Assembly: GCF_013340845.1 (NCBI RefSeq)
Contig: NZ_AP020335.1
Coordinates: 1-64,000 of the forward strand
Source of the DNA: Hydrogenovibrio marinus
Lineage (GTDB): Bacteria; Pseudomonadota; Gammaproteobacteria; Thiomicrospirales; Thiomicrospiraceae
Reading direction: 5' to 3'
Length of the DNA stretch: 64,000 bases
The translations under genes and the position numbers were made by a program. The first letter of the stretch is position 1, and each line of letters opens with the position of its first letter. Shown here piece by piece: positions 4,553-57,596 of this stretch. The notes under the pieces were generated by a model. It did no database searches. It saw nothing but the letters and a program-made list of their open reading frames with translations, and was not told the origin of the DNA.

Positions 4553-4556
4553 CACT

Positions 4557-22181: not shown

Positions 22182-22647
22182 CTCCCCTGAATACACCTGC
22201 CGCCTAGCGACTTTGGCAGACATGGACGCACTCAATAATTTGTTGTGTGCATTATTTCAACAGGAAGACGAATTCGTACCGGATATCGCCGCGCAAACCC
22301 GTGGCTTGACCGAGATTTTGCAAAACCCGACCATGGGCTGCATTCTGGTTTCATGTGAAACAACTGCGCCGGAAAAAATGAATGGCATGGTGAATTTGTT
22401 ATTCACTATCTCCACTGCCCTTGGCGGCAAGGTCGCCTTATTGGAAGACATGGTAGTTTCTCATGAGGTGCGACATCAAGGCATCGGATCACTTCTGATT
22501 CAAGCCGCCATTGCCGAAGCCAAGCGCCAAAACTGCCTTCGCATCACCTTACTGACTGACCATCACAATACTGCAGCGCAAACCTTCTATGAAAAGCATG
22601 GTTTTCAAGCGTCACCTATGCGACCTTATCGCCTAATGCTTGAGTAA
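22168..22647 (+). CDS. GNAT-family N-acetyltransferase
   Basis: A 159-residue acetyl-CoA-dependent acetyltransferase. The cofactor-binding motif A is VVSHEVRHQGIGSLLIQAA (the Q/RxxGxG/A pattern, about 109-127), and the C-terminal motif B is NTAAQTFYEKHGF. The substrate is unknown. It overlaps the end of the cytochrome b gene, so translation is probably coupled. It is the last gene of the eight-gene operon; a copy of the 18-bp repeat starts five bases after its stop. Confidence 0.88.
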   Translation: MNENSSPEYTCRLATLADMDALNNLLCALFQQEDEFVPDIAAQTRGLTEILQNPTMGCILVSCETTAPEKMNGMVNLLFTISTALGGKVALLEDMVVSHEVRHQGIGSLLIQAAIAEAKRQNCLRITLLTDHHNTAAQTFYEKHGFQASPMRPYRLMLE

Positions 22648-22651
22648 TACC

Positions 22652-22669
22652 CCCAACCTGGCAGATTTT
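22652..22669 (-). repeat. 18-bp dispersed repeat, copy 5
   Basis: An exact copy (CCCAACCTGGCAGATTTT on the plus strand) between the GNAT stop and the FMN reductase gene. With copy 4 it brackets the operon 16985-22647 in direct orientation. Confidence 0.9.
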
Positions 22670-28314: not shown

Positions 28315-29026
28315 GTTCGATTGTCTCGGATAAACAAACTGGATTCAAACGGTAGCCCACCCCCCAAACCGTTTCTAAAATTTTGGGTTTGGCGGGATTC
28401 TTCTCAATTTTCTTTCTCAAGCGATTAATGTGTGAGCTGATGGTGTGCTCAAACCCGAAATAATCTGATCCCCAAATTTGCGCCAACAAATCATGTCGGG
28501 TAAAAACTTGGTTTGGAGACACCGCGAACAACTTCAACAGGTCAAACTCCTTAGTGGTCAACTCCAATAAAGTGTCTTTCAGCCAGGCTTGGTGAGATTG
28601 CAAATCCAGCTTGAGGCAGCCGACCTGAACAATCGTGTCCAGAGTGTTGTGCGTTCGTGAACGTCTCATCAGAGCTTTAATACGTGCCTTGAGCTCTTCC
28701 AGCCCAAAAGGTTTGCTCAAATAATCGTCCGCTCCCAGTTCCAAGCCCGCAACCTTGTCTTGCTCATCGGAACGCGCCGTCAGCATCAAAATAGGGGTAA
28801 TATGGTTTTGTCTGCGAAAATAACGACAAAACTCAAGACCATCTCCATCAGGAAGAGACAAATCAAGAATAAGAAGATCGATAACATTTGATTCAACATA
28901 GGATTTCGCCTGCTCTAATCGATCCAATATCGTGGCTTGTCCTTTGAGGCTGCCTACCTGTAAACGAACCAGATTGGCGATGTCTGCATCATCCTCTACA
29001 ATCAAAGCTTTGAATAGGTCGCTCAT
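28307..29026 (-). CDS. OmpR/PhoB-family response regulator
   Basis: A 239-residue DNA-binding regulator. The receiver domain has the acidic pair EDD (11-13), phospho-acceptor Asp55 in LLILDLSLPDGDG, and Lys in LSKPFGLEEL. The C-terminal winged helix has TTKEFDLLKLFAVSPNQVFTR and HINRLRKKIE, ending in WGVGYRL. It lies 55 bp downstream of the P460 cytochrome gene and overlaps the kinase gene. It may regulate its own operon. Confidence 0.94.
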   Translation of the reverse strand: MSDLFKALIVEDDADIANLVRLQVGSLKGQATILDRLEQAKSYVESNVIDLLILDLSLPDGDGLEFCRYFRRQNHITPILMLTARSDEQDKVAGLELGADDYLSKPFGLEELKARIKALMRRSRTHNTLDTIVQVGCLKLDLQSHQAWLKDTLLELTTKEFDLLKLFAVSPNQVFTRHDLLAQIWGSDYFGFEHTISSHINRLRKKIEKNPAKPKILETVWGVGYRLNPVCLSETIEHV

Positions 29027-29081
29027 ATGAATTCCTTAAACTCTGCCCATCAAGTTGTGTTCTGGGCAGAGGCGCTACCGA

Positions 29082-29624
29082 TTAAGGCAAACGGCTTGGT
29101 AAAAGAGCTGGTTTATGGAACACCCAGTCCTGATTTTTCACTGGCGTATGGCAAGCGATGCAGCTGGCATGAGCGGATCCTTTGGCATCTGCAAAAGGCT
29201 TTTGCTCCATACCAACCCATCTGGCCCACCCCCAGCCATGGGTATCAGCCCATTTTTTGCTGTCTTTGAACATGAACTCCGCATGAACGAACTTACCAGG
29301 AACATCTGCTGTCGGCCAGTGTGGATCTTTCTCTTTTTTCCAAACGATTTTGCCTAATGCAGCGCCATCAGGCCATGGGTTGGTCTTGCCTTCCTCAATC
29401 GCCTTAATAGCCGCATCATTTCCTAACACCGCTCGCAGCGTTTTGTTGTCGTCACGGTTGGTAACAGAAATTAATTTCCAATCCTGATAGCCAGCCGGAA
29501 ATTCAATACCATCCACCGTTGGCGCTGGTAGTTTGTTGGTAGACTGGGCAAAAGAAGCTTGCATAGACAGGCTCAGTCCCAGAAAAACCATTGTTTTCAA
29601 GTTTAACATTTTGTGTAGTTTCAT
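29082..29624 (-). CDS. Cytochrome P460-like periplasmic haem protein
   Basis: A 180-residue exported protein with a signal peptide ending near SFAQS. One c-type haem site CIACH (155-159) lies close to the C-terminus. The layout (AGYQDWKLISVTNRDD, then GKIVWKKEKD, then CxxCH near the end) fits the cytochrome P460/c'-beta family. P460 oxidises hydroxylamine or NO through a Lys-haem crosslink; c'-beta members bind NO. Which applies cannot be read from sequence alone. GGAG seven bases before the ATG supports the start. It heads the operon P460-regulator-kinase. Confidence 0.82.
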   Translation of the reverse strand: MKLHKMLNLKTMVFLGLSLSMQASFAQSTNKLPAPTVDGIEFPAGYQDWKLISVTNRDDNKTLRAVLGNDAAIKAIEEGKTNPWPDGAALGKIVWKKEKDPHWPTADVPGKFVHAEFMFKDSKKWADTHGWGWARWVGMEQKPFADAKGSAHASCIACHTPVKNQDWVFHKPALLPSRLP

Positions 29625-29738
29625 TCCTTTTCTCCATGTGATGATTTAAAAAGGAATTTCATTATCGGGTTTGCTAACCCCTTAAATCCTCACGAAATTG
29701 TCACAAAACGTATTTTTTATCATTCCTCGCTTCACACC

Positions 29739-29756
29739 CCCAACCTGGTAGATTTT
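29739..29756 (-). repeat. 18-bp dispersed repeat, copy 6 (one mismatch)
   Basis: CCCAACCTGGTAGATTTT on the plus strand: one C-to-T change from the consensus. It lies between the divergent P460 and SulP genes, 73 bp upstream of the SulP start. Confidence 0.88.
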
Positions 29757-29829
29757 TGCCTTTGATTTGAGGATTTTGATAAACTTTTGTCTATCACTTC
29801 TTTGTTATCTATAGAGGAACATAGCGCCC

Positions 29830-31557
29830 ATGTTGCAAAACTGGTTCCCGAACTTACAGAGTTTTTGGCAAAGCCTTCTTCACCCTTCTGACCTGAAACC
29901 CAATGTTTTGGCAGGCTTGACTGTCGGTATCATCGCATTGCCTTTGTCGATGGCACTGGCGATTGCCATTGACGTGCCGCCACAGCATGGTCTTTACACC
30001 GCGATGATTGGCGGGGTGGTCATTGCCCTTTTCGGCGGTTCCAAAATCAATATTTCCGGGCCGACGGCAGCCTTTGTCGTGGTCTTACTGCCGATCGTTT
30101 ACCAATATGGATTGGGCGGTTTGCTGTTAAGTGGACTGATGGCGGGAATACTGCTCATCATCATGGGGCTGACCAATATGGGTCGCCTGATTGAAGTAGT
30201 ACCGTATCCTGTTACCGTCGGCTTCACCTCTGGGATTGCAGTGGTGATTGCAACCTTACAAATCAAAGATCTGCTTGGCTTGCCATTGCCGACACTAACC
30301 GGGCACTTCATTGAAAATGCGGGAACCATTCTTCAGTCATTGCCACAATTTCATTGGCAAGAGGCGCTGATCGGGTTACTGACACTGGTGACCTTTATCC
30401 TGTGGAGCAAACAGAAATCTTACATCCCACCTCACCTGATTGCCTTATTGGTCGGCACCCTCACCGCATTGGCACTACCCTATTTTCTGCCTGCCTTTCA
30501 GGTCGAAACCATTGGGTCACGCTTTCACTACCTGATGGATGGTGTTTCCGGTCAAGGGATTCCCCCTTTTCTGCCGGAATTGTCCTTGCCTTGGAATCAA
30601 CCCGGTGCTGACGGCAAACCCTTACATTTGTCTTTTGAGCTGATTCACGATTTACTGGGGCCAGCGATTACCATTGCGCTGTTGGGCTCGATTGAATCAC
30701 TGCTCTGTGCTGTCGTTGCCGATGGCATGACCGGAACCAAACATCAACCCAACAAGGAGTTAATAGGCCAAGGCATCGGCAATATTGTGGTGCCGTTTTT
30801 CGGCGGCATTCCTGCAACCGCGGCCATTGCCCGTACTGCCGCCAGTATTCGCTCCGGTGCTAGCTCACCGTTGGCCTCGGTGGTGCATGCTTTATTTGTA
30901 TTAGGTGCAATCGTCTTCTTTGCGCCGGTGTTATCGCACATCCCCATGGCAGCTTTGGCGGCACTGTTGATTATGGTGGCGTGGAACATGAGTGAGGCGA
31001 AACACTTTATCCGTATTTTGAAAATTGCACCGCGTGCTGATGTTGCCGTGTTGTTGACCTGTTTTTCTATCACCGTGTTGTTCGATATGGTCATGGCGGT
31101 CAGCATCGGCATGGGCTTGGCGGCACTGCTGTTTATCAGCCGCAGCATTCAGCTCACGGAAGTGAAAAAATGGGAACATCAATCCGAGCACCCGCATTTG
31201 AAAAATTTACCGAAAGAAGTGTTAGTCTATGACATCAACGGCCCATTATTTTTTGGTTCCGCTCAAAAGGCGTTACACAGTATGGCAACCGTCAACCCCG
31301 ACACTAAGGTCCTCATATTGGATATGAGCGACGTGTCTATGCTTGATATGAGTGCGATAATGGTCTTAGAAACGATTTATTCAAGGTTGCAAGCTCAAAA
31401 AATCGCTATCATTATTAATCAATGTAATGAAAGACTGATTTTAAAATTACAAAAAGCCGGCATCCATAAACAAACGGGAAGGGTAGATTTCTCCAAAAAC
31501 CTTGAAGAAGCCATCGAAATTGCCAAAAATAGTATGCTCAACCCGAAACTAGAATAG
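29830..31557 (+). CDS. SulP-family anion transporter with STAS domain
   Basis: A 575-residue permease: about 12-14 TM segments (residues 25-430) with the SulP signature near the start (LAGLTVGIIALPLSMALAIA, then GLYTAMIGGVVIALFGGS) and a cytoplasmic C-terminal STAS domain (about 450-560; DMSDVSMLDMSAIMVLE). Members carry sulfate, bicarbonate, chloride or dicarboxylates. In autotrophic Hydrogenovibrio-type bacteria some SulP proteins have been linked to dissolved inorganic carbon uptake, so bicarbonate is a reasonable candidate, but the sequence does not prove it. The zntB-like gene follows after 26 bp. Confidence 0.93.
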   Translation: MLQNWFPNLQSFWQSLLHPSDLKPNVLAGLTVGIIALPLSMALAIAIDVPPQHGLYTAMIGGVVIALFGGSKINISGPTAAFVVVLLPIVYQYGLGGLLLSGLMAGILLIIMGLTNMGRLIEVVPYPVTVGFTSGIAVVIATLQIKDLLGLPLPTLTGHFIENAGTILQSLPQFHWQEALIGLLTLVTFILWSKQKSYIPPHLIALLVGTLTALALPYFLPAFQVETIGSRFHYLMDGVSGQGIPPFLPELSLPWNQPGADGKPLHLSFELIHDLLGPAITIALLGSIESLLCAVVADGMTGTKHQPNKELIGQGIGNIVVPFFGGIPATAAIARTAASIRSGASSPLASVVHALFVLGAIVFFAPVLSHIPMAALAALLIMVAWNMSEAKHFIRILKIAPRADVAVLLTCFSITVLFDMVMAVSIGMGLAALLFISRSIQLTEVKKWEHQSEHPHLKNLPKEVLVYDINGPLFFGSAQKALHSMATVNPDTKVLILDMSDVSMLDMSAIMVLETIYSRLQAQKIAIIINQCNERLILKLQKAGIHKQTGRVDFSKNLEEAIEIAKNSMLNPKLE

Positions 31558-31583
31558 CCCTTCACCCTCATCAAGGAGATTGT

Positions 31584-32579
31584 ATGGCCGAACAAGTCGT
31601 CCAGGAAACCAGTGAAACAGGATTAATTCATGCATTCTTGATGAACGGTAAAGGCGGTGGTCGGTTATTGAGCTGGGAAGAGCTTCAAGATTGGACACCC
31701 GACCAAGGGAAAATCTGGGTTCACTTTGACTACACAGTTACCGCTACCCGCAGCTGGCTGGAAAGCGACAGTGGACTAGATCAAATTATTATCGACGCAC
31801 TCCTAACGGAAGACACTCGTCCCCGTACCACCAACATAGATGACGGCCTGTTGATTACGCTACGCGGTGTCAACAACAACCCCGGCGCCGACCCTGAAGA
31901 CATGGTATCTATCCGTATCTGGGCGGAAGCCGATCGCATCATCTCTACTCGCAAACGCAAACTGCTATCCGTCAAAGACTTGTTGCGCCAACTGGAACGC
32001 GGCAAAGGACCAAAAGACATGGCGGAGTTCATCGTCTATCTGACAGACAGGCTGGTCTGGCGCATGATTGATACGGTAGATCAACTTGAAGAACAAATCG
32101 ACGATATCGAAGACAAAGCCCTGACTGAAAACCCAAGTGATTTGCGCCATGACTTATCAGTGTTACGCCGTCAAACTATTGCCCTTCGCCGTTACTTGTC
32201 ACCGGAACGCGATGCCTTGACTAAAATCATGGTGGAGCAGGTGAGTTGGATTCAGGATATCCACCGCAGAAAAATGCGCGAAGTCGGTGAGCGCCTGATA
32301 CAGCACATTGAAGATATCGATGTGGTCAGAGAAAGAACCTCGGTAATGAACGAACAATTATTGAGCCGCTTGTCCGAACAGTTGAACCAGCGCATGTATG
32401 TGCTATCAATCTTATCTGCCATTTTCTTGCCTTTGGGGTTCCTGACCGGTTTATTGGGGGTCAACCTTGGCGGTATTCCTGGCGCTCAAGGCAACTCGGC
32501 CTTTTGGATCTTTGTCGGGCTCTTATGTTTGGTCGTCCTAGGCCAAGTGGCTGTCCTCAGGTGGAAAAAATGGTTATAG
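31584..32579 (+). CDS. zntB: CorA-family zinc transporter (ZntB type)
   Basis: A 331-residue CorA-superfamily protein: a large cytoplasmic N-terminal domain (about 1-265) with a long stalk helix, then two C-terminal TM helices separated by the selectivity loop GVNLGGIPGA. The GxN motif is followed by GGIPG rather than the CorA MPE, which marks the ZntB subgroup (Zn2+ transport). AAGGAGA precedes the ATG. It lies between SulP and APC permease genes, probably in one operon. Confidence 0.88.
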   Translation: MAEQVVQETSETGLIHAFLMNGKGGGRLLSWEELQDWTPDQGKIWVHFDYTVTATRSWLESDSGLDQIIIDALLTEDTRPRTTNIDDGLLITLRGVNNNPGADPEDMVSIRIWAEADRIISTRKRKLLSVKDLLRQLERGKGPKDMAEFIVYLTDRLVWRMIDTVDQLEEQIDDIEDKALTENPSDLRHDLSVLRRQTIALRRYLSPERDALTKIMVEQVSWIQDIHRRKMREVGERLIQHIEDIDVVRERTSVMNEQLLSRLSEQLNQRMYVLSILSAIFLPLGFLTGLLGVNLGGIPGAQGNSAFWIFVGLLCLVVLGQVAVLRWKKWL

Positions 32580-32613
32580 CATCTATGTCGACTAGGTCTT
32601 GCGGAGGCGCTAC

Positions 32614-33915
32614 ATGACCGAACCTGTCCGCAGTGTCAGCTTGCTTGGCGCACTTGCCATCGGTATCGGTGGCATGGTGGGGGGTGGTATTTTTGCCGTA
32701 TTGGGTGAAGCGGTTTCTTTGGCACATGGCGCGACGGCGGTTGCCTTCCTGGTCGCTGGTGCAGTCGCCTTATTAACCTCTTATGCCTACGCCAAGCTAT
32801 CGGTAACATTTCAAAGTCAGGGTGGAACAGTCGTTTTTATTGACAAGGCTTTCCGCCACAACATCCTATCAAGCAGTATGAATTTCATGCTATGGTTGAG
32901 TTATCTGGTAACGATTTCACTCTACGCCGTGGCTTTTTCCTCCTATGCCCAGACATTTTTTCCGAATGAACACTCCAATCTACTGAACCACTTTTTTATC
33001 ACCTTGGCGATTCTTCTGCCCACGTTGATCAATTGGATCAGTGCGGCTTTCGTCAGTCGCTCAGAAACCTTCATTGTCCTCATCAAAGTGTTTTTACTGG
33101 TGGTTATTATCGTCACCGGTGCGAGTTTTGTTGACCCAAAAGCTCTCGATCCTCATCAGTGGAAAGCACCCTTTTCCATCTTTGTGGCGGGGATGATTAT
33201 TTTCGTCGCCTATGAAGGATTTGAGTTGATTGCCAATTCCGCAGAAGAAATCAAAGACCCGGAGCGTAACTTGCCCCGCGCATTTTACGGCTCAATACTT
33301 TTCGTGATTTTGCTGTATGTGCTCATCGCCATCATCACCGTTGGCGCAGTACCCGAAGCACAACTGATGCAGGCAAAGGACTATGCGTTGGCATTGGCGG
33401 CGAAACCGGCAATGGGACAACTCGGCTTTACTTTGGTAGCAGTTGCTGCCCTGTTAGCGACTTTTTCCGCCATCAACGCCACCATATACGGCAATGCTCG
33501 CTTGGGTTACATCATCGCCAAAGAAGGCAATTTGCCGAAGTTCCTGGAGAAGGAAAAGCGTAACCAACCCTTTATGGCGACAGTCGCTACATCCGTACTC
33601 AGCTTGCTACTCGCCAATAGTATTTCTTTGAATGAAATCGCGATTATCGGCAGTGCAAGTTTCTTGCTGGTGTTTCTGATGGTCAATCTAAGTGCTTTAA
33701 AGCTCTATGACCAAATCCAAGGCAATCGCTGGATATTCTTCATTGCCGGTATGTCGAGCTTGGCGGCACTCATCACCTTACTGATACACACCTACGAAAC
33801 CCAAAAAGTGGCAGTACTTATTTTCTTTGCTTTCGTCTTACTGTCCGTCAGTTTCGAAGTGCTATATGGCCGTTGGGTGAGAGGTCATTTCTTCTATCGT
33901 TCTTATCCCCTTTAG
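32614..33915 (+). CDS. APC-superfamily amino acid permease
   Basis: A 433-residue permease with about twelve TM helices. The first helix carries the APC unwound motif IGIGGMVGGGIFAVLG, and helix 6 has FVAYEGFELIANSAEEI. The start at 32614 has GGAGG six bases upstream. The substrate is undetermined. It closes the SulP-zntB-permease operon; a repeat copy lies 92 bp after the stop. Confidence 0.9.
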   Translation: MTEPVRSVSLLGALAIGIGGMVGGGIFAVLGEAVSLAHGATAVAFLVAGAVALLTSYAYAKLSVTFQSQGGTVVFIDKAFRHNILSSSMNFMLWLSYLVTISLYAVAFSSYAQTFFPNEHSNLLNHFFITLAILLPTLINWISAAFVSRSETFIVLIKVFLLVVIIVTGASFVDPKALDPHQWKAPFSIFVAGMIIFVAYEGFELIANSAEEIKDPERNLPRAFYGSILFVILLYVLIAIITVGAVPEAQLMQAKDYALALAAKPAMGQLGFTLVAVAALLATFSAINATIYGNARLGYIIAKEGNLPKFLEKEKRNQPFMATVATSVLSLLLANSISLNEIAIIGSASFLLVFLMVNLSALKLYDQIQGNRWIFFIAGMSSLAALITLLIHTYETQKVAVLIFFAFVLLSVSFEVLYGRWVRGHFFYRSYPL

Positions 33916-34007
33916 CGGCGATTTACCACATAGAAACGGGCGCTTGAAAAAGATTCATTCAGGCCATAAACATTCCAAAAACAACGCATTGCTTTATTTT
34001 AAAATAT

Positions 34008-34025
34008 CCCAACCTGGCAGATTTT
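34008..34025 (-). repeat. 18-bp dispersed repeat, copy 7
   Basis: An exact copy (CCCAACCTGGCAGATTTT on the plus strand), 28 bp upstream of the RMD1-like gene. With copy 6 it brackets the SulP-zntB-permease operon in direct orientation. Confidence 0.9.
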
Positions 34026-34053
34026 CATGCTGTTATTACTTTACTAAGGAATC

Positions 34054-34881
34054 ATGATGAACACTTCATCGCCCGCTTCTAAAATCGCTCAGATTAACCT
34101 GCTGTCTGTTTATCTTCCCGCAGATTTCAGCCATATGGAGGTAGCGGATAAACTGAATATTCCTTTGAAAAAAGGAATTGAAGCCTCCTTCTACGCCGAA
34201 ATCACCGACACCTCGCCGAGCCGCTTTCTGTTCTTCACTCAGTTTGACGTCATCACCTTCGTCAATTGGCCGAAAGAAGATGTCAGCAAGGCGTTGAAGA
34301 AGCTCGGTTTAACGCAATCCTATGAGCAGGCGACGCTCTACCAAGACTACAACATCACTTTGAATACAGACGCCACCACCCCTTTTCACGTAGACAACAA
34401 CAAAATTGAGTTGCGCGAATTGAGCCTTTGGCCACTGATGATTGTCAGCTTGGTCATTGCGCAAAGTGTGGGTCTGGAGAAATTCGAAAAAGAGGTCGAC
34501 CGCTTTTACAGCAAAGGTCGAAATATGGTTGAGACCTCCACTTCCTTTAGCTGGATGAAGCGCCATGAGTTTGCCGACTATGCAATTGAATTAAGTCTTT
34601 TGCGCCATGATATGGTGCTGGATTTGATGCTGTTGGATAAGCCCAATATCCTTTGGGACAATGAAGCTTACGAGCAACTATACAACCGCTTGGCAGAACT
34701 CTTAGATCTTCAGGAACGTTTTGAGGTGGTGACTTATAAGCTCAACACGCTGAAAGAAGATATAACGATGATGATCGATCTTTATCAACACAAACACAGT
34801 TCTTTCTTGGAGTGGATCATTATTCTGCTGATTCTTGTGGAAGTATTCATGGGATTCTGGGAGATGTTTTTCAAGCATTAA
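34054..34881 (+). CDS. RMD1/YagE (DUF155) family protein
   Basis: A 275-residue protein of the family related to yeast Rmd1 and mitochondrial RMND1. Typical parts are FLFFTQFDVITFVNWP, the LIAQSVGLEKFEKEVD-like LVIAQSVGLEKFEKEVDR segment near residue 135, and LNTLKEDITMMIDLYQHKHSSFLEWIIILLILVEV at the end, where one TM helix anchors the C-terminus. The bacterial function is unknown. Two ATGs stand in tandem after AAGGA; the second (34057) is slightly better spaced. Confidence 0.82.
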   Translation: MMNTSSPASKIAQINLLSVYLPADFSHMEVADKLNIPLKKGIEASFYAEITDTSPSRFLFFTQFDVITFVNWPKEDVSKALKKLGLTQSYEQATLYQDYNITLNTDATTPFHVDNNKIELRELSLWPLMIVSLVIAQSVGLEKFEKEVDRFYSKGRNMVETSTSFSWMKRHEFADYAIELSLLRHDMVLDLMLLDKPNILWDNEAYEQLYNRLAELLDLQERFEVVTYKLNTLKEDITMMIDLYQHKHSSFLEWIIILLILVEVFMGFWEMFFKH

Positions 34882-35190
34882 AAGCGCGTTAAACAACGGA
34901 TTCATTTCGCTCTATCATGACGCGAATTGTTATAAATTGTTTCTATATTGGCAAGCTTAACGGCAAAAAACACTAGTAACTTCAACAACTTTAGGCTTAT
35001 CATTGAAAGTGGTGATGTCAGAATCTCTGACATCAAATATCAATTAAGTCAATTTTCACACCCATGTGGATAGCAATACCCACATTTCCATCATTGGTTC
35101 CCGCCAAGCTAAAGCTTTTGGGAATTTGTTTTTTGAACATCCTTGGTAAAAAGGATTGAACGTTTGTTCGAGAAAACTGGAGAGTCACCC
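34882..35190. other. Intergenic region, probable structured leader of the 30-aa gene
   Basis: 309 bp without a supported gene. It contains the inverted repeat at 35013-35035, a TGTGG/CCACA stem (about 35065-35083) and an ATCCTT/AAGGAT stem (about 35140-35157) close to the ribosome binding site of the 30-codon gene. I could not identify a known riboswitch or convincing promoter boxes. A 31-codon frame from 35064 lacks an RBS. Confidence 0.4.
35013..35035. promoter_or_regulatory. Perfect 10-bp inverted repeat
   Basis: TGATGTCAGA-ATC-TCTGACATCA: 10-bp arms and a three-base centre. There is no T-run. It could be an operator for a dimeric regulator, or the stem of an RNA hairpin, 155 bp upstream of the 30-codon gene. 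Confidence 0.6.
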
Positions 35191-35283
35191 ATGGAAGATT
35201 TAATTGCATCTAGCGGAGCGATTATGATGATTGCTCTGTGTGTTAGCCTCGTAGTAGCACTACGCGCTGCTATTCCTCAATAA
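35191..35283 (+). CDS. 30-residue single-pass membrane microprotein
   Basis: An ATG-to-TAA frame of 31 codons starting MEDLIASSGAIMM. Residues about 8-27 form one hydrophobic helix that contains a single Cys17 and Arg25 near the end; the C-terminus is AAIPQ. GGAGAG is placed six bases before the ATG, and a strong Rho-independent terminator begins 16 bp after the stop. Together these argue for a real, efficiently translated gene. I do not recognise a family. Small one-helix proteins often serve as accessory subunits of oxidases or transporters, but nothing here identifies a partner. Confidence 0.7.
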   Translation: MEDLIASSGAIMMIALCVSLVVALRAAIPQ

Positions 35284-35299
35284 GAAGTTGTTAACTAGG

Positions 35300-35328
35300 A
35301 AAAAAGCCCAGAATTTCTGGGCTTTTTT
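35300..35328 (+). terminator. Rho-independent terminator of the 30-aa gene
   Basis: Six A, the stem GCCCAGA/TCTGGGC and six T around a three-base loop. Confidence 0.92.
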
Positions 35329-35362
35329 GTTTATCGCAAAAGTTCAGCGATTGTCCAGACAA

Positions 35363-35388
35363 TAAAAAAACCAGCACAAGGCTGGTTT
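35363..35388 (-). terminator. Terminator of the Spy-like gene
   Basis: AAACCAGC-acaag-GCTGGTTT preceded on the plus strand by an A-run, which on the minus strand is a T-run after the stem. It lies about 35 bp beyond the stop of the minus-strand gene. Confidence 0.85.
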
Positions 35389-35420
35389 CAGGTTTCATTC
35401 AGCGATATGAAAAGCTGAAA

Positions 35421-35960
35421 TTATGAAGCCTTAGCGGCTGGTGCAGGCTTTGGCATCATTTTTTTCGGATGATGAAAGTTGTCCGCCAACATTGTGAACT
35501 GTTCTGGCGTCAATACAGAGCGTACGAACGCACGACATTTCAATTTAGCATGCATGATATCTGAGCGCACTTTCAAAGACTGCTCACCCACTTTGATGAT
35601 GTCTTTATCATCCTTGCCAGCCAATGCCATATTGCGAGCTTCTGCTTCCAAATGCATCACATTTTTGATCATGGCTTTAACATTTGGAAAATGCTCTTTG
35701 TGATATTTAGCCAATTTTTCATATTGCTCTTTAGTTAGCTTAAGCGGATTGCCGTGCGTGTAACTTCTTAGCAATTTCGGCATCAGGTTCGGCATAAAGT
35801 TCGCATGCAGTAGTTCATGATAAAACCCTTTGCCATTAGGCTTCTTCATCGGTTTTTCCATGGCTTTGGCAGGCGCAGGTGCTGGCTCTGCTGCTTGGGC
35901 AGATAGCGTAAACGCGCTGGTTGCAAAAACGAACAACACTAATTTCAAAAAACGTTTCAT
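35421..35960 (-). CDS. Exported Spy/CpxP-like helical protein
   Basis: A 179-residue periplasmic protein. The start at 35960 has GAGGG eight bases upstream and gives a signal peptide ending SAQAAEP; an upstream in-frame ATG (36008) would bury it. After an Ala/Pro/Lys-rich linker the body is helical, with two LTxEQ-type motifs (LTKEQYEKLAKYHKEH and LTPEQFTMLADN), which define Spy/CpxP and the heavy-metal resistance repressor-type family. These act as periplasmic chaperones or stress sensors. Several His/Met residues (HHPKKMMPKP) could bind metal. Confidence 0.75.
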   Translation of the reverse strand: MKRFLKLVLFVFATSAFTLSAQAAEPAPAPAKAMEKPMKKPNGKGFYHELLHANFMPNLMPKLLRSYTHGNPLKLTKEQYEKLAKYHKEHFPNVKAMIKNVMHLEAEARNMALAGKDDKDIIKVGEQSLKVRSDIMHAKLKCRAFVRSVLTPEQFTMLADNFHHPKKMMPKPAPAAKAS

Positions 35961-36261
35961 TAAAATTTCCCTCGTAAGGTAAAACAAGAAAAATCCAAAA
36001 TATGACAAAACTTAAGTGCCGCCGATTACCTGCATGAAGTGATTACCACTTCCTTCAAAATAATCAAAAGCCTTCACATCGGCTTATATCAGTTTTGGGT
36101 CAAGTAGAAGAAAAACCATGAGAACTCACAACGTGAACTCCTCAAAAAGTGAGAACCACAAATTTTTCGCCACTAGATTATTCCTAAAAAATGCTTTTTC
36201 AAAACTATTTTTCAACGGCGAATCAAAGTTCAATGATTTAGACAGGATTACACAAAATAAA
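35961..36261. other. Intergenic region without a recognisable feature
   Basis: 301 bp between two minus-strand genes. It is AT-rich, with many A and T runs. It presumably holds the promoter of the Spy-like gene, but I see no clear boxes, no terminator for the DUF3095 side, and no RNA gene. Confidence 0.4.
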
Positions 36262-37434
36262 TTAATGGACAGGTGCTTCTGACCCTAGTTTTATTTGGGC
36301 TTTGAGCTGTTTTGCCGCCACGGCATAACCACCATCAGCGGCATCGACAAAGTGGACGTGATCGGTTCCAGTCTTTTCGACAAGACAGGTAATTACTGCG
36401 GCATTGGTTTGATGGCAACCGTAAAAAAGAATACCCGCCCGATGTTGTTCTTCCAACCAGGACAACAGGTTTTGTAAATCAGATTGGTTGCAGGACATTA
36501 CTGTTTTGAAGTTATCGTCAAGTTTTTGATAATCGGTATTTTCTACCAAATCGGCCTTGTAGTCGCCCCATTCATACCCATTAACCGCCTTGTTGGTTTT
36601 TATCCAATAGACACCCACTAGGCTTTCCAGACGAATGCGAATCGCTGTTTTCAAACGATACCAAAGGTTGTGATGAAAACTTTTCGCGAGTGTCTCTGCC
36701 TTGAGCTTCTCGGCACTGAAACTTAATGACAAATTATCCTGACTTAATGGGTGGTGCTCAATTCGGTCACCCAACAACTCATCAACTTTTTGGGTCAGCT
36801 TCCGATAGAGCGCCAAGGTATCTTTGTTTTCCGCTAGTCGAGATTTAACCAACAGGCTAAAAGTGACTTGTTTGGGGCTTGGGATCTGGTTCCAACGACA
36901 TTCAAAACCGGAAAAGTCGGCATCTGAAATCGTGTCTTCCGATAATTCATAACCGAGGTGGCTTTTAACCAGTCCATCAGCTTCATCCATGCCGCCCCCC
37001 ATGAAAAAATACTGGGTCAGGTTCGGCGCACTTCGGTAACGACATAGATGTATTTTTTGCGTTAAAGCTTGATAAGGCACAATACCAACGCGAAGTTTTA
37101 AGTCCAGGCCATCTGAAGCGAGTTCTTGGCAACCGCGCAATGCGCGCCGGACTTTTTCCATCAACTCTGGTGGCAGACAAAAACTGGCACCATCGCCACC
37201 GAATACATAGGGAATTTTCTGAGGCTTAGTGGCATTCACCACCGCAGCGATGGTACTGCCACCAACGGCGTTTACATCACGATAGCGACCCTGCTCGATT
37301 GCTTTGGTTGAGTTCACCACATCGGTGACGACCACATACCAATCTTTAGGTAGCTCGGTATAGGCGTCACAATTGAGTGTTTGTTCGAGTCGGGTAAAGA
37401 GAGGAATGCTTTCCTCAAAGTCCTTTAAAGACAT
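36262..37434 (-). CDS. DUF3095 protein with nucleotide-cyclase-like N-terminus
   Basis: A 390-residue protein. VVVTDVVNSTKAIEQGRYRDVN (about residues 35-56) and YVFGGDGASFCLP (about 76-88) resemble the two metal-Asp segments of class III adenylyl/guanylyl cyclases (TDxxxST and GGDG). The remaining two thirds are specific to DUF3095 (RYRSAPNLTQYFFMGGGMDEAD; ILFYGCHQTNAAVITCLV; HFVDAADGGYA). Catalytic activity and product are unknown. I start at the ATG at 37434, just after the thrB stop; the frame opens further to 37467 inside thrB. Probably co-transcribed with thrB. Confidence 0.78.
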   Translation of the reverse strand: MSLKDFEESIPLFTRLEQTLNCDAYTELPKDWYVVVTDVVNSTKAIEQGRYRDVNAVGGSTIAAVVNATKPQKIPYVFGGDGASFCLPPELMEKVRRALRGCQELASDGLDLKLRVGIVPYQALTQKIHLCRYRSAPNLTQYFFMGGGMDEADGLVKSHLGYELSEDTISDADFSGFECRWNQIPSPKQVTFSLLVKSRLAENKDTLALYRKLTQKVDELLGDRIEHHPLSQDNLSLSFSAEKLKAETLAKSFHHNLWYRLKTAIRIRLESLVGVYWIKTNKAVNGYEWGDYKADLVENTDYQKLDDNFKTVMSCNQSDLQNLLSWLEEQHRAGILFYGCHQTNAAVITCLVEKTGTDHVHFVDAADGGYAVAAKQLKAQIKLGSEAPVH

Positions 37435-37450
37435 GCGCTTTGATAAGCCA

Positions 37451-38398
37451 CTACAATGGCTGCGCATGGTTCTGATGATAGGTCAGAACCGATTTGAAGA
37501 CATTTGGATCCTTGATTTGCGTCATTTCCCCTTCGCGCGGCATGTGTTTATCTTTTAATCTCGAAAGGAAAAAACGTAATGCTGCTAAACGCAAAGCGTA
37601 AGGCCAAGTGACCTTTTCTTGCCAGGTCAATTCACGAATCTGCTGATAGCTCGACAACATTGCGGCGACCTTGTCACTATCGTAAGTAAGATCAGGCAAA
37701 CGACACCAGTCATTGACCATTACGGCAAGGTCATAAAGCAATGGACCATTACAGGCGTAGTATAAATCGATAATCCCGGAAAGCTCATTGCCATCAAACA
37801 AGGCATTGTCACAGAATAGGTCGGCATGAATAACACCTTGTGGCAAGACTTCCCACTCATAATTAGAAAGCGTGTTGATCTCTTCGGAAATCAGGGCAAC
37901 TTCATCTTTAGGCAAGAGGGGTTGAATCAAATCGAATGTGGTTTGCATCCAATCCAGATTACGGTCATTTTCGCGGAAATCCTCAAAATCCTGTCCAGCA
38001 AGATGGAACTTGGCCATCTGCTCGCCCATGACTTCGCACTGCTTTAGAGTCGGTAGCTCAACGCCATCGCCTTTCAAGCGCTCCACCAAAGCGGCGGGCT
38101 TACCTTGTAAAGACTTCAAATAGCCGTTGGACAGACTTTTTTCCGGGTGAGCCGTAGGAATAGCGTGCTCAGCCATGAAGGCCATGATATTCAGGAAGTA
38201 AGGCAATTCACCAAACGTATGATGTTCAAATACCGTTAAGACAAATTGCTGAAGCTGACCGTCTTTTTCCGTGTTGACAAAATAATTGGTATTCTCAATT
38301 CCGGCACTAATTCCCTCGTAAGAGGCCAAGGCTCCGACATTATAATCCGCTAGGAAAGCTTCCAGTTCTGCTTGTTCTATGACTGTATAGACCGACAC
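37451..38398 (-). CDS. thrB: Homoserine kinase (choline kinase-like ThrB)
   Basis: It phosphorylates homoserine to O-phosphohomoserine on the way to threonine. The 315-residue protein belongs to the choline/APH kinase-fold type II homoserine kinases found in many proteobacteria, not the GHMP type. Motifs are GISAGIENTNYFV near residue 30, the catalytic GVIHADLFCDNALF (about 187-200) and the metal-binding GIIDLYYACNGPLLYDLAV (about 206-224). It is divergent from polA and followed 16 bp later by the DUF3095 gene. Confidence 0.93.
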   Translation of the reverse strand: MSVYTVIEQAELEAFLADYNVGALASYEGISAGIENTNYFVNTEKDGQLQQFVLTVFEHHTFGELPYFLNIMAFMAEHAIPTAHPEKSLSNGYLKSLQGKPAALVERLKGDGVELPTLKQCEVMGEQMAKFHLAGQDFEDFRENDRNLDWMQTTFDLIQPLLPKDEVALISEEINTLSNYEWEVLPQGVIHADLFCDNALFDGNELSGIIDLYYACNGPLLYDLAVMVNDWCRLPDLTYDSDKVAAMLSSYQQIRELTWQEKVTWPYALRLAALRFFLSRLKDKHMPREGEMTQIKDPNVFKSVLTYHQNHAQPL

Positions 38399-38473
38399 AC
38401 TCTAAATCCGGTTAATATAGGTTAAAATAATCATCGAATTTTACCATAACTCAATAAATCTCTAGGCAGTTTC

Positions 38474-41287
38474 ATGACAGCAATGCAACTTGAATTCAAT
38501 CCAAAAGCGCCCTTTATTCTCGTAGACGGTTCTTCTTATCTATTCCGCGCTTTTCACGCCATGCCTCCTTTGACAAATTCCAAAGGTCATGCCACTGGCG
38601 CAATTTTCGGTGTGATCAATATGATCGGAAAATTGTTGGAGCAATATCAACCTGAACGCATTGCCGTGGTATTCGATGCCAAAGGCAAGAACTTCCGTCA
38701 TGAAATGTATGAAGAGTACAAGGCGCATCGCCCACCGATGCCAGATGAACTGAGAATTCAAATAGAACCGATTCACCAAATTATCAAAGCGTTAGGAATC
38801 CCTCTTTTGGTGATTGACGGTGTTGAAGCCGATGATGTCATGGGAACCCTTGCACAACAAGCCACTGAAGCGAAAATGGACGCTCTATTGTCAACGGGTG
38901 ATAAAGATATGGCGCAACTGGTGAATGAACATATCACCCTTATCAACACTATGAATGACACGTTGATGACACCGGAAAAGGTGTTGGAAAAGTTTCATGT
39001 GAAACCTGAACAAATAATCGACTACCTTGCCTTGATGGGCGACAGCTCAGACAATATTCCAGGAATTCCGAAATGCGGTCCAAAAACGGCGGCAAAGTGG
39101 CTGGAAGAGTACGGCACCATCGAAAATTTGATAAACCATGCCGACGAAATCAAGGGGAAAATTGGGGAAAGTCTGCGAGATAACTTGGATCAATTAAAAC
39201 TGTCACAACAATTGACAACAATCCGCATTGATTGCGATTTGCCGGTTCACCTCAGTGACATCAAACGCCATACACCCGATGTCCAGGCATTGGCAGAACT
39301 TTTTGCCGAGTATGACCTACGAAACTGGCAAGGACAAATCGCGAAAGGCCAGCTTCCATTCAGCAAGTTCACAGGGCGCAAAGCGCATAGCGCAACCCTG
39401 GTCAGTGAACATAATGGCAAACACCACTCAAACCCAGCCCAGCCTGCAACATCAGAAAACTTCGAAATCGCGCCCTACGAAACGATTTTGGATGAAAGCA
39501 CTTTTGAACAATGGCTGACAAAACTTAAGGAAGCCGATTGTTTCGCCATAGATACTGAAACCACCTCATTAGATACCATGATCGCCCAAATCGTCGGTAT
39601 CAGTTTTGCATACGAATCATCTGGCAAGATTCACGCGGCTTATGTTCCGTTAAAGCATGACTATGAGGGTGCGCCTAACCAGCTGGATTTCGAACAAGCA
39701 CTCAGCCGCCTGAAACCTATTTTAGAAAGTGAACAAATCCAGAAAGTTGGACAAAACCTGAAATATGATTGGCATGTTTTTATGAATCATGGCATTGAAC
39801 TAAAGGGGATTGCCTACGACACCATGTTGGAATCCTATTGTTTGAACAGCGTGGCAACGCGTCACAATATGGATGACTTGGCTTTGAAATACCTTAACCA
39901 TAGCACTATCCATTTCGAAGACATCGCTGGTAAGGGCAAAAATCAACTGACATTCAACCAAATTCCTGTTGAGCAGGCTGCGCCTTATGCTGCGGAAGAT
40001 GCCGATATTACTTTGCGACTGCATTTCACTATTTGGCCACAACTGAAAAAAGATGAAGGGCCTTGCCGCATTTTCAAAGACATTGAAATGCCTTTGTTAA
40101 CGGTCTTGGCAAAAACCGAACGTAACGGTGTACTCATCGACAAGCAAATGCTCGCCGATCAATCTTATGAGATTGGTGAAAAACTGGTTCAACTTGAACA
40201 AGATGCTCACTTGATTGCAGGAACGCCATTCAACCTGAATTCTTCCAAACAGCTACAAGAAGTACTGTTTGATAGATTGAATCTACCCGTTTTGAAAAAG
40301 ACACCAAAAGGCCAACCCTCAACTGCGGAACCTGTTTTAGCGCAACTGGCAGATGAAGGTCACGAATTACCAACTTTGATTTTAGAATACCGTAGCTTGG
40401 CAAAATTGAAATCCACCTACACCGATAGTCTTCCAAAACAAATCAATGAAAAAACCGGGCGCGTTCATACTTCTTATCAGCAAGCGGTGGCTTCGACTGG
40501 ACGCTTATCGTCTACGGAACCAAATTTGCAAAACATCCCCGTTCGTAATGCCGAGGGTCGTCGTATTCGCCAAGCGTTTATTGCACCGAAGGGGTATAAA
40601 ATCGTTGCCGCAGATTACTCGCAAATTGAACTCCGCATCATGGCACATTTATCAGGAGACGCCAATTTAGTCACAGCATTCACTGAAGGGAAAGATATCC
40701 ACCAAGCAACTGCCGCAGAAATTTTTGGTATGCCACTTGAAAGTGTCACTAGCGAACAGCGTCGTAGTGCCAAAGCAGTGAACTTCGGATTAATTTATGG
40801 TATGTCCGCATTTGGCTTGGCAAAACAGTTGAATATCCCTAGAAATCTAGCTCAGGAATACATCAACCTGTATTTCAGCCGCTACCCCAGCGTGCAAACC
40901 TATATGGAGAGTACCCAAGCGAATGCGCGTGAGAACGGTTATGTTGAAACCTTATTGGGGCGCCGTCTTTATTTGCCCGACATCAATGCTAAAAATGGTC
41001 AACTACGTCAATATGCCGAACGTACAGCTATTAACGCGCCGATGCAAGGCACCGCTGCCGATATTATTAAACGTGCGATGATTGATATTCAAAAATGGTT
41101 AGATACGTCCGATTTGAACCTCAAAATGTTGATGCAGGTACATGATGAATTGGTTTTTGAAGTTGCAGAAAAGGATATAGAGGCTGCTCAACCGGAGATC
41201 AAACGCATAATGGAAGCCGCTTTATCACTAGATGTGCCTTTGATTGTTGAAGTCGGTCAAGGTGACAACTGGGATGAGGCGCATTAA
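38474..41287 (+). CDS. polA: DNA polymerase I
   Basis: The 937-residue enzyme fills gaps and removes RNA primers. It has a 5'-nuclease domain (about 1-300; LVDGSSYLFRAFHAMPPL, IDGVEADDVMGT, GDSSDNIPGIPKCGPKTAAKW). A 3'-5' exonuclease domain follows with FAIDTETTSLD intact (about 357-367), so proofreading is expected. The family A polymerase domain has motif A ADYSQIELRIMAHLSGD (about 713), motif B RRSAKAVNFGLIYGMSAFGL (about 761) and motif C VHDELVFE (about 889). The length matches E. coli Pol I (928). Confidence 0.98.
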   Translation: MTAMQLEFNPKAPFILVDGSSYLFRAFHAMPPLTNSKGHATGAIFGVINMIGKLLEQYQPERIAVVFDAKGKNFRHEMYEEYKAHRPPMPDELRIQIEPIHQIIKALGIPLLVIDGVEADDVMGTLAQQATEAKMDALLSTGDKDMAQLVNEHITLINTMNDTLMTPEKVLEKFHVKPEQIIDYLALMGDSSDNIPGIPKCGPKTAAKWLEEYGTIENLINHADEIKGKIGESLRDNLDQLKLSQQLTTIRIDCDLPVHLSDIKRHTPDVQALAELFAEYDLRNWQGQIAKGQLPFSKFTGRKAHSATLVSEHNGKHHSNPAQPATSENFEIAPYETILDESTFEQWLTKLKEADCFAIDTETTSLDTMIAQIVGISFAYESSGKIHAAYVPLKHDYEGAPNQLDFEQALSRLKPILESEQIQKVGQNLKYDWHVFMNHGIELKGIAYDTMLESYCLNSVATRHNMDDLALKYLNHSTIHFEDIAGKGKNQLTFNQIPVEQAAPYAAEDADITLRLHFTIWPQLKKDEGPCRIFKDIEMPLLTVLAKTERNGVLIDKQMLADQSYEIGEKLVQLEQDAHLIAGTPFNLNSSKQLQEVLFDRLNLPVLKKTPKGQPSTAEPVLAQLADEGHELPTLILEYRSLAKLKSTYTDSLPKQINEKTGRVHTSYQQAVASTGRLSSTEPNLQNIPVRNAEGRRIRQAFIAPKGYKIVAADYSQIELRIMAHLSGDANLVTAFTEGKDIHQATAAEIFGMPLESVTSEQRRSAKAVNFGLIYGMSAFGLAKQLNIPRNLAQEYINLYFSRYPSVQTYMESTQANARENGYVETLLGRRLYLPDINAKNGQLRQYAERTAINAPMQGTAADIIKRAMIDIQKWLDTSDLNLKMLMQVHDELVFEVAEKDIEAAQPEIKRIMEAALSLDVPLIVEVGQGDNWDEAH

Positions 41288-52668: not shown

Positions 52669-53391
52669 ATGAAGACATTATTCTTAAGTTTATTACTGTT
52701 ATTTTCGGTATCGGCTTTTGCCGATCCTGGTTCACCGATGAATGACAAAGATCCTTATGAATCTTATAACCGTGCAGTATTTGCTTTTAACATGGGATTT
52801 AATGATGCTGTCGGTATGCCGGTTGCGAATGCCTATCAGAATTATGTCCCTTCTCCAGCACGAAAGGGCATCAGTAACTTTTTTCAAAATCTGAAAGAAC
52901 CATTAAATGTGGTTAATGCTTTATTCCAGGGTAAACCAAAAGAAGCACTCAGCAGTTTTATGAGATTCAGTATTAACAGTACTTTGGGGCTTGCCGGATT
53001 ATTGGATATTGCAACTCCTGCCAAATTGAAATATCAACAAGAAGATTTAGGTCAAACCCTCTATAAATGGGGATTTTGGGACAAATCTTCTTTTATTATG
53101 ATGCCAATTTTAGGTCCATATACCACGCGTGAATTGGTGGGGGGATCAATAGATTCGGTCTATAACCCAACTTACCCTTATGTCATTCAAACAGATTTAT
53201 CAGGAAGAGCGTTACTGTTTGTTGGTAGTAAGTTTGTTGATTACACCAAGGTAGTGAATTTAACGGGCGAGATGAAAAGCCAGCCGGATCCTTACATCTT
53301 TATGCGCGAATCCTATATGCAGTACCGAATGAATTTGATTTATGATGGAAATCCACCACAACCGAAATTAGATGACTTTGATTTTAATTAA
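52669..53391 (+). CDS. mlaA: Phospholipid-binding MlaA (VacJ) family protein
   Basis: MlaA sits in the outer membrane and passes mislocalised phospholipids to periplasmic MlaC for return transport. The 240 residues show DPYESYNRAVFAFN, FQNLKEPLNVVNALFQGK, INSTLGLAGLLDIA and MMPILGPYTTRE, all MlaA hallmarks. The N-terminal signal peptide (MKTLFLSLLLLFSVSAFADPG) has no lipobox cysteine, whereas E. coli MlaA is a lipoprotein. The start is six bases after the OxyR-like stop. No mlaBCDEF genes are in the window; an RND pump follows. Confidence 0.92.
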   Translation: MKTLFLSLLLLFSVSAFADPGSPMNDKDPYESYNRAVFAFNMGFNDAVGMPVANAYQNYVPSPARKGISNFFQNLKEPLNVVNALFQGKPKEALSSFMRFSINSTLGLAGLLDIATPAKLKYQQEDLGQTLYKWGFWDKSSFIMMPILGPYTTRELVGGSIDSVYNPTYPYVIQTDLSGRALLFVGSKFVDYTKVVNLTGEMKSQPDPYIFMRESYMQYRMNLIYDGNPPQPKLDDFDFN

Positions 53392-53445
53392 ATAAAATCG
53401 TATAAATACGCATAATAAAACAATAAAACCTTCGGAGATGTATTC

Positions 53446-54504
53446 ATGAATTTGCGTTTAATTTTTATTATGCTGACGGTGATTTTTGGTTTAACTGCAT
53501 GTGGTCATCACTCCGAAGAAACGACAAAGGAAATTGTCAGACCTGTCAAATATGTTGAAGTGTCCGCACCAAATAGTGCGGGTTTGCGTGAGTTTCCAGG
53601 AACATTACAAGCCAAGGATCGTGTTGATCTGTCTTTCCAAGTATCTGGAAAGTTAACGAAATTACCCATTAAAGAAGGTCAACATCTTAAGAAAGGTGAA
53701 TTGATCGGTGCTTTAGATCCGCGGGATTTTCAAGCAAAATACGATTCTGCAGTTGCCGGTTTCAAAAATGCCAATGCCAATTATTTGAGAGGCAAAAGGC
53801 TGATTTCCAAAGAATACATTTCTCAATCCGATCTGGATAAACTTCAAGCGCAAAAAGATCAAGCCGATGCCAATGTTCGTTTGGCTAAGAAAGCGTTGGA
53901 TGATACCAAACTGTTGGCGCCCTTCTCGGGAACTGTTGCCAAACAATATGTTAGAAACTTTACCGATATACAGGCCAAACAATCCATTGTCAGTTTGCAA
54001 AACAATGATGATCTGGAAATAGTCATATCCGTTCCAGAACAAATCATTGCGCAAAAGGAAAATGCAGATCATTTAAAAATCAACGCTGTGATTTCGACTA
54101 TTCCCAATAAGAAATTCGCTTTAAAGGTTAATGAGTTCACCACGGAAGCTGATCCTGTTACCCGTACTTATAAAATCACATTGGGAATTATTGATAAGGA
54201 AGGATTCAATCTTTTTCCAGGTATGACTGCTACTGTGGAATTATCCGGTTCAACATTGTCTGGCCCAATACAGTTACCAGTAGATGCTGTATTTGCTGAC
54301 CCTAATGGCAATCATCAACAATTTGTTTGGGTAATCGACAAAGACAAAAAAGTACATAAAGTGCCTGTTGAAGTTGGTGAATTAAGAGGGAGCTCAATCG
54401 AAGTACTCAAAGGGATTTCAGAGAAAGAGAAAATTGTCGTTGCCGGTGTGCATTATCTTACGGAAGGACAACAGGTAAAACTACTTCCACCTCAGCAGCA
54501 GTAA
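53446..54504 (+). CDS. RND efflux periplasmic adaptor (membrane fusion) lipoprotein
   Basis: A 352-residue adaptor with a lipobox GLTACG (lipidated Cys19). The first lipoyl half is FQVSGKLTKLPIKEGQHLKKGELIGALDPRDF (about 60-92, split by the hairpin); the coiled coil spans about 95-150 (DKLQAQKDQADANVRLAKKALDD); the second lipoyl half is TKLLAPFSGTVAKQYV. A beta-barrel and a membrane-proximal domain follow. It bridges the RND pump to an outer-membrane channel, whose gene is not adjacent. Confidence 0.93.
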   Translation: MNLRLIFIMLTVIFGLTACGHHSEETTKEIVRPVKYVEVSAPNSAGLREFPGTLQAKDRVDLSFQVSGKLTKLPIKEGQHLKKGELIGALDPRDFQAKYDSAVAGFKNANANYLRGKRLISKEYISQSDLDKLQAQKDQADANVRLAKKALDDTKLLAPFSGTVAKQYVRNFTDIQAKQSIVSLQNNDDLEIVISVPEQIIAQKENADHLKINAVISTIPNKKFALKVNEFTTEADPVTRTYKITLGIIDKEGFNLFPGMTATVELSGSTLSGPIQLPVDAVFADPNGNHQQFVWVIDKDKKVHKVPVEVGELRGSSIEVLKGISEKEKIVVAGVHYLTEGQQVKLLPPQQQ

Positions 54505-54514
54505 GGTGTCTATT

Positions 54515-57577: not shown

Positions 57578-57578
57578 T

Positions 57579-57596
57579 AAAATCTGCCAGGTTGGG
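57579..57596 (+). repeat. 18-bp dispersed repeat, copy 9
   Basis: An exact copy, AAAATCTGCCAGGTTGGG, that begins two bases after the RND stop codon and 126 bp before the GGDEF-EAL gene. Confidence 0.9.

Follow-up and report, generated by a model that had tools for sequence, protein, structure and literature searches.

Does a 30-residue reading frame that stands alone behind a long, foldable leader encode a functional membrane protein, and does that leader control its expression? The question was raised by an initial annotation of a 64,000-nucleotide stretch of Hydrogenovibrio marinus DNA (the window), which took the locus to be a regulated single-gene transcript for a small membrane protein. 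To address it we compared the window's own genome (G000) with Hydrogenovibrio sp. JE_KL2 (G001), with a third species of the same genus (G004) and with wider sets of genomes. The features referred to below are collected in Table 1.

Table 1. Sequence features of the peptide locus and copies of the 18-base motif, in window coordinates
Feature	Position	Strand	Remarks
Whole relocated unit	34966..35397	+	432 bp: promoter-like block, leader, ORF, terminator, convergent second terminator
Invariant 15-base run AACTTCAACAACTTT	34978..34992	+	5′ of the −10-like site; putative operator or −35 region
−10-like hexamer TATCAT	34998..35003	+	TATCAT in G001, TATTAT in G004
Leader stem H1	35013..35035	+	perfect 10-bp inverted repeat; conserved core 35014-35019 / 35029-35034
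CAATTAAGTC	35041..35050	+	predicted partner of GATTTAATTG just 3′ of the start codon
Leader stem H2	35065..35084	+	7 pairs, present in each of the three species; a one-sided change at one of them
UUCCAU (UUCCAC in G001)	35086..35091	+	predicted partner of the start-codon sequence AUGGAA
Shine-Dalgarno GGAGAG	35179..35184	+	six bases 5′ of the ATG
Peptide gene	35191..35283	+	30 residues, 30-codon frame, single predicted membrane helix; reads MEDLIASSGAIMMIALCVSLVVALRAAIPQ
Intrinsic terminator of the unit	35300..35328	+	14-bp perfect stem 35300-35313 / 35315-35328; aligned hairpin in G001 and G004
Opposing terminator	35367..35389	-	after the minus-strand neighbour, faces the unit; homologue within the G004 block
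CCCARCCTGGYAGATTTT copies in the window	5553(-), 9042, 16921, 22652, 29739, 34008, 48818(-), 57579(-), 11717(-)		up to 2 mismatches

The frame and selection on its peptide

The 31-codon frame at 35191-35283, with its well-placed GGAGAG, is present as originally described and is a real gene. The GGAGA, the ATG and the terminator of the unit are common to all three species in the alignment. The single hydrophobic helix that had been read from the letters is supported by an AlphaFold2 prediction, in which residues 2-27 form one helix with a mean pLDDT of 89.7, and the best 19-residue hydropathy is 2.2-2.5. By its sequence the peptide is net acidic, with E2 and D3 against R25 alone (charge count -1), and Ala15, Ser19, Ala23 and Ala27 are invariant in the three copies. 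With fewer than 50 residues, a single predicted transmembrane helix and a conserved frame with its own signals, it has the features of a small membrane protein. Profile searches of Pfam, NCBIfam, PHROGs and PADLOC returned zero family matches, and a search of the PDB returned one chain only, at the chance level of E 2.7. Searches of the open-licence literature on small proteins of Hydrogenovibrio, type I toxins of Thiomicrospira and transcriptomes of Thiomicrospira crunogena yielded nothing on the peptide gene; among the papers was PMC11439405, which describes stranded RNA-seq of a Hydrogenovibrio strain close to H. thermophilus.

Copies of the peptide were found in three of the 55 genomes searched, own genome included, all within the genus; they are 90% identical to the window's peptide in G001 and 79% in G004. 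A profile search of 62 genomes of the order listed 38 matches, comprising the same three copies, which places the peptide in 3 of the 11 genomes of the genus and leaves 8 without a copy, and 35 weak matches at E 0.033 or worse. Of these 35, the 27 that had a locus were translated; read by eye, they include no small gene that runs from start to stop and resembles the peptide. Among 369 sampled genomes of the class, the search found the own copy and one match at E 8.4e-4, which is attributed to chance because it lies antisense within a 234-aa frame; there was no credible further copy. A degenerate pattern, which detects close copies only, found four stretches in the genome contigs (G001 and three unrelated frames) and one in the viral contigs, within an unrelated frame, and plasmid and phage DNA gave no match. 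The three carriers look like a clade, a view that rests on pairwise identities of a HAD-type protein and not on a tree: the proteins of G000 and G001 are 85% and 89% identical to that of G004, and those of the seven other genomes with a match 60-69%.

The comparison with G004 is the informative one for selection. Of the 87 bases compared 22 differ, distributed over codon positions 1, 2 and 3 as 5, 2 and 15, which amounts to 13.5 differences over 21.7 synonymous sites versus 8.5 over 65.3 nonsynonymous sites and to a dN/dS of 0.107 for G000 and 0.097 for G001. Six residues are changed, versus a mean of 13.9 when the differences were placed at random (P 5e-5, 20,000 trials). The G000-G001 pair by itself is uninformative (5 differences, dN/dS 0.48, P 0.41). 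That the peptide is under protein-level selection, with synonymous change favoured, is therefore well supported by the comparison of sequences. The frame is very short and has no family match, as a chance open frame in an intergenic region would, yet such an origin is contradicted by the selection result and by the preservation of frame, start, ribosome-binding site and terminator at two genomic sites with mostly synonymous change, and we regard it as most improbable. Loss of the frame or random substitution in relatives, which the initial annotation had named as the finding that would speak against it, is not what the three carrier species display, the eight genomes of the genus without a copy aside.

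Two other readings of the frames in this region were considered and rejected. An N-terminal extension from a TTG at 35143, giving 46 aa, is not kept as a protein in G004 when read by eye, unlike the ATG with its GGAGA. An upstream frame at 35064-35159 was rejected as a leader peptide by reading the sequences, with no rate computed: its codon differences from G004 are mainly amino-acid-changing, and in G004 it has TTG for ATG and meets an early stop, so that it fits a constrained stem better than a peptide.

A self-contained unit at two genomic places

In G000 and G001 the unit is flanked by a DUF155 gene on one side and, on the other, by a minus-strand gene ending at 35421. The collinear site in G004, in a region that is mostly collinear with the window over ten aligned blocks, has the counterparts of both neighbours 45 bp apart with nothing between them, and the unit is absent. 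The G004 copy is found at a distance of about 1 Mb, where its neighbours are the gene of a HAD-type hydrolase and ffh (SRP54-type protein Ffh, Pfam), so that the neighbours of the unit differ between species. The HAD-type gene and ffh adjoin without the unit in G000 and G001 and likewise in G003, a genome outside the clade; since these neighbours lack the unit there too, the G004 site looks derived. The search for relatives with synteny that had been proposed at the outset thus returned a copy at the same site in G001 and one at a different site in G004.

The extent of the unit was defined by BLAST of 12 kb of the window (29001-41000) against 10 kb around the G004 copy. The sole aligned stretch is 34966-35397, which corresponds to 4210-4666 of the G004 locus (L053) at 66% identity, with matches admitted up to E 0.01, and the ends of the block are sharp and coincide with the ends of the unit. 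A self-contained unit is thus present at two different genomic places, and since the whole block occurs at both with sharp ends, promoter, leader, peptide and terminator travel together. A gain in the ancestor of the three species, followed by one move, would be the simplest history. The block ends carry neither direct repeats of at least 10 bases nor an inverted repeat joining both ends, features by which an insertion element or MITE would be recognised. A REP transposase was rejected as the mover of the unit, as PF01797 has no match in the own genome.

The signals of the unit were examined in all three species. The 15-base run AACTTCAACAACTTT is identical in the three and has one exact copy in the own genome; within two mismatches it occurs at 30 places there, versus 62 for the reversed control. 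In each species the TATCAT site, at its matching place, ranks first or second among the plus-strand promoter scores, which rest on approximate matrices; the match is moderate with a weak −35, and a plain consensus promoter scan did not report it. The immediate strong terminator claimed for the locus is confirmed as a perfect stem of 14 bp, whose 3′ arm ends in the T run; a consensus terminator scan did not report it either, probably because the scan rule requires T after the stem. Of the strong expression signals originally claimed, the ribosome-binding site and terminator therefore hold, while the promoter does so only in part, with no clear −35 and absence from the consensus scan. The gene-free leader of about 300 bp is likewise there as 309 bp of gene-free DNA (34882-35190), but its transcribed part is probably only about 185 nt, because of the conserved −10-like TATCAT; if this site is the promoter, the leader measures about 185 nt in G000, 194 in G001 and 207 in G004.

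Several observations were made on the surroundings of the two sites. The DUF155 gene (34054-34881) occurs, like the peptide, in 3 of the 11 genomes of the genus, but is unlinked to it in G004. The protein encoded at 35421-36008 (-), whose start looks signal-like by eye, matched nothing in Pfam, NCBIfam or PHROGs, and its counterpart adjoins DUF155 in G004 too. In G001 the gap between the HAD-type gene and ffh (L043) holds an insert of about 200 bp with inverted ends (GAGAGCTTTGCACGAG...), MITE-like by eye, that is absent from G000.

The window also contains copies of an 18-base motif, CCCARCCTGGYAGATTTT. With up to one mismatch and on both strands it occurs 350 times in G000, 386 times in G001 and 360 times in G004, no more than once in any of the other 59 genomes of the order, and its reversed control has 0 occurrences in G000, G001 and G004. 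Eight of the nine window copies are intergenic with unrelated flanks (by eye), the copy at 11717(-) lying within a gene. Among the places listed, the variant is CCCAAC in G000 and G001 and mostly CCCAGC in G004. The motif resembles a DNA uptake sequence that is specific to the clade and has dialects, or else a REP-like repeat; we found no paper pairing Hydrogenovibrio with 'uptake sequence'. Two of the nine junctions between the ten G004-aligned blocks fall at copies of it (22652 and 57579): at 22647-22652 about 1.2 kb is extra in G004, and at 53390-57579 the G004 site lacks the window's HlyD-type and AcrB-type genes (53446-57577, Pfam). In G004 the start of one copy precedes the unit by 66 bases (L053 4144 versus 4210).

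Leader structure and pairing at the start codon

The transcript from 35005 to 35340 folds better than 100 of 100 shuffles (z -5.68), a value that includes the terminator. For the leader alone, the z-scores are -2.87 (G000), -1.76 (G001) and -1.85 (G004) against 150 dinucleotide shuffles each. The 10-bp inverted repeat that had drawn attention to the leader is there, its arms 35013-35022 and 35026-35035 being 100% complementary; in G004 it comprises 6 bp only, with a longer loop. The six pairs of the H1 core are kept in all three species, with one two-sided and one one-sided change. Over the H1 core and H2 together, every cell is paired (39 of 39); one of the changes is two-sided and two are one-sided, and 152 of 500 shuffles do as well. 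The covariance analysis proposed for the leader thus yielded two kept stems, but its covariation amounts to a single two-sided pair at a level that those shuffles reach. Further stems had been noted originally, one near the ribosome-binding site; H2 is kept in all three species, and pairing in the region of that site differs between them.

Conservation of the leader as a whole is unexceptional. Against G001, 169 of 186 leader positions (0.91) are identical, and in the other intergenic stretches of the window 3126 of 3560 (0.88), counted over the 23 of 24 regions with more than half of their length aligned. Because the fourfold sites of the neighbouring DUF155 gene are just 0.66 identical (60 of 91), intergenic DNA seems to be constrained as a whole, and the leader no more so. 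Against G004 the leader has 117 of 183 (0.64) and the pooled intergenic stretches 1902 of 2504 (0.76), a baseline biased upward as only BLAST-aligned stretches were counted. Within the unit, identity is highest for the promoter block (30/37), for H2 together with UUUCCAU (27/34) and for the terminator with the rest of the 3′ end (35/43); these part-by-part identities indicate that conservation marks the promoter, the H2 region, the peptide and the terminator and not the leader in its entirety.

Could the RNA itself be the main product, with the leader acting in trans as an sRNA and the peptide secondary, or as a dual function? The discrete promoter-to-terminator unit, the two kept stems and a kept UUUCCAYCA beside H2 would fit such an RNA, but it is on the peptide that selection shows most clearly, conservation of the leader is nothing unusual and no Rfam family matched within the window at the gathering score. 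A leader RNA model (R1), run with stricter filters against the 62 genomes of the order, found only the same three loci below E 0.38. We consider a mainly regulatory or dual-function RNA quite unlikely. A DNA search with the leader in these genomes at E up to 1 gave, among the matches listed and besides the three loci, many terminator look-alikes (query 361-391) and short matches; four of these, at 1654543 in G000 and in G003, G008 and G059, were read by eye and look unrelated.

Pairing at the start codon was then predicted for each species. The pairing of UUCCAU/C with AUGGAA has a probability of about 0.5-0.65 in G000, 0.3-0.4 in G001 and 0.6-0.7 in G004. Besides it a second pairing is predicted, of CAAUUAAGUC with GAUUUAAUUG, strong in both G000 and G001 and nearly absent from G004; for CAATTAAGTC with GATTTAATTG the probability is 0.87-0.99 in G000, 0.78-0.94 in G001 and about 0.04 in G004, so that it is not conserved. 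Averaged over the first six start bases, the probability of being unpaired is 0.15, 0.29 and 0.16 in G000, G001 and G004 (shuffle means 0.33, 0.35 and 0.40), with ranks against 150 shuffles of 0.15, 0.39 and 0.05, which is consistent in direction and not significant. The Shine-Dalgarno sequence is more open than its shuffles in G000 (0.58 vs 0.33) and G001 (0.49 vs 0.36) and less so in G004 (0.20 vs 0.41), so that masking of the ribosome-binding site is not common to the species.

These results could also be read as those of an ordinary untranslated region without a regulatory role, the peptide being a constitutive small membrane protein: leader conservation is near the intergenic baseline and the masking is non-significant. 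Against this, leader-only folding lies below the shuffle mean in every species, and the H1 core and H2 persist in a leader that is about 64% identical to that of G004; we judge such a reading very unlikely. What stands of the regulated single-gene transcript proposed initially is the single-gene unit, given the selection on the peptide and the block at two sites. Its regulation by the leader does not follow suit, as the H1 repeat shrinks, pairing at the ribosome-binding site varies, masking is non-significant and identity is near or below the intergenic baseline; on these models a regulated structured leader is supported only in part.

Proposed function and relation to known systems

We give an even chance to the explanation that the locus is a free-standing single-gene unit for a clade-restricted small regulatory membrane protein, possibly under translational control. 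Transcription would start just 3′ of TATCAT, under the upstream AACTTCAACAACTTT element, and yield an mRNA with a leader of roughly 185-207 nt and two conserved stems that ends at the terminator. The leader may lower translation through pairing of UUCCAU/C with the start codon, which some condition or factor would then undo, a step to which the predictions point weakly. By the positive-inside rule the peptide would insert as one helix with the acidic N-terminus outside and Arg25 inside. The invariant small residues suggest helix packing: Ala15, Ser19, Ala23 and Ala27 would provide the contacts with a partner helix, and through such packing the peptide would have a modulating effect on a membrane complex or on the state of the membrane, in the manner of known small membrane proteins of the stress type.

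A type I toxin-like unit was weighed as an alternative, in which the peptide depolarises or damages the membrane, the leader silences the full-length mRNA and an unrecognised antisense RNA represses it. The peptide's 30 aa and predicted hydrophobic helix 2-27 lie within the size expected of such toxins (fewer than about 60 aa, one transmembrane helix), the unit is whole at two sites, and removal of 90 nt from the 5′ end is predicted to open the start codon from 0.15 to 0.65 in G000; the effect, however, is weaker in G001 (to 0.49) and G004 (to 0.28). Among the five best sites per strand, no minus-strand promoter-like site recurs at corresponding positions in the three species; a site of moderate score, 171 bases ahead of the ATG, occurs in G000 only. 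A single trans antisense candidate followed among other short complements, a 19-nt complement of 35114-35132 that also occurs in G001 with one change, was rejected, as it lies in coding-like sequence (by eye). There was no LexA-like box with the pattern used. R25 is the only cationic residue of the net acidic peptide, which thus lacks the usual cationic C-terminal part. Because no antisense promoter-like site recurs among the best scores, the trans complement followed is coding-like and there is no cationic end, we do not claim membership of the type I toxins, and hold such a unit to be unlikely, if worth bearing in mind. In tisB, leader structure keeps the full-length mRNA silent. In its size, its lone helix, its strong terminator and its long leader, for which masking of the start is predicted, the unit fits the general toxin anatomy described in PMC8309996 and PMC4147584, and according to the former type I toxins are generally cationic at the C-terminus, with IbsC, ShoB and DinQ as exceptions.

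The findings add a well-supported orphan small membrane protein to the genus Hydrogenovibrio, and indicate that promoter, leader, peptide and terminator can relocate as one compact unit. If the leader gates translation, the mRNA would be a new self-silencing one outside the enterobacterial models. A bolder proposal, which we think rather improbable, is that of a self-contained, relocatable mini-gene, moved between chromosomal sites as a single 430-bp cassette, for a new membrane-active peptide whose mRNA is self-silenced by a new leader RNA; the peptide would be a new stress peptide under cis control or a new type I-like toxin that lacks a classical antitoxin.

Riboswitches and thermosensors are cis-regulatory mRNA leaders, and the structured leader before a small single gene recalls them; unlike them, it has no Rfam match at the gathering score, and its covariation is too thin for a structured-regulator claim. 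With the type I toxins TisB, AapA1, ZorO, ShoB and DinQ the unit shares a short hydrophobic helix, a long leader, a strong terminator and a predicted, though not significant, start masking, but its peptide is net negative and no antitoxin RNA was found among the promoter-like sites and the complement examined. AcrZ and MgtS, together with YohP, are stress-induced small membrane proteins. YohP, a 27-aa protein of E. coli, lowers membrane potential, is made under stress and starvation and is conserved in most gammaproteobacteria, as reported in PMC12719787. Our peptide resembles it in having fewer than 50 residues, a single helix, its own gene and no catalytic motif, and differs from it in having no family match, a long leader and a range of one clade only, compared with the wide range given for YohP in that paper. 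By analogy, YohP, lowering membrane potential without killing as described there (PMC12719787), would be the closest model for the action of the peptide.
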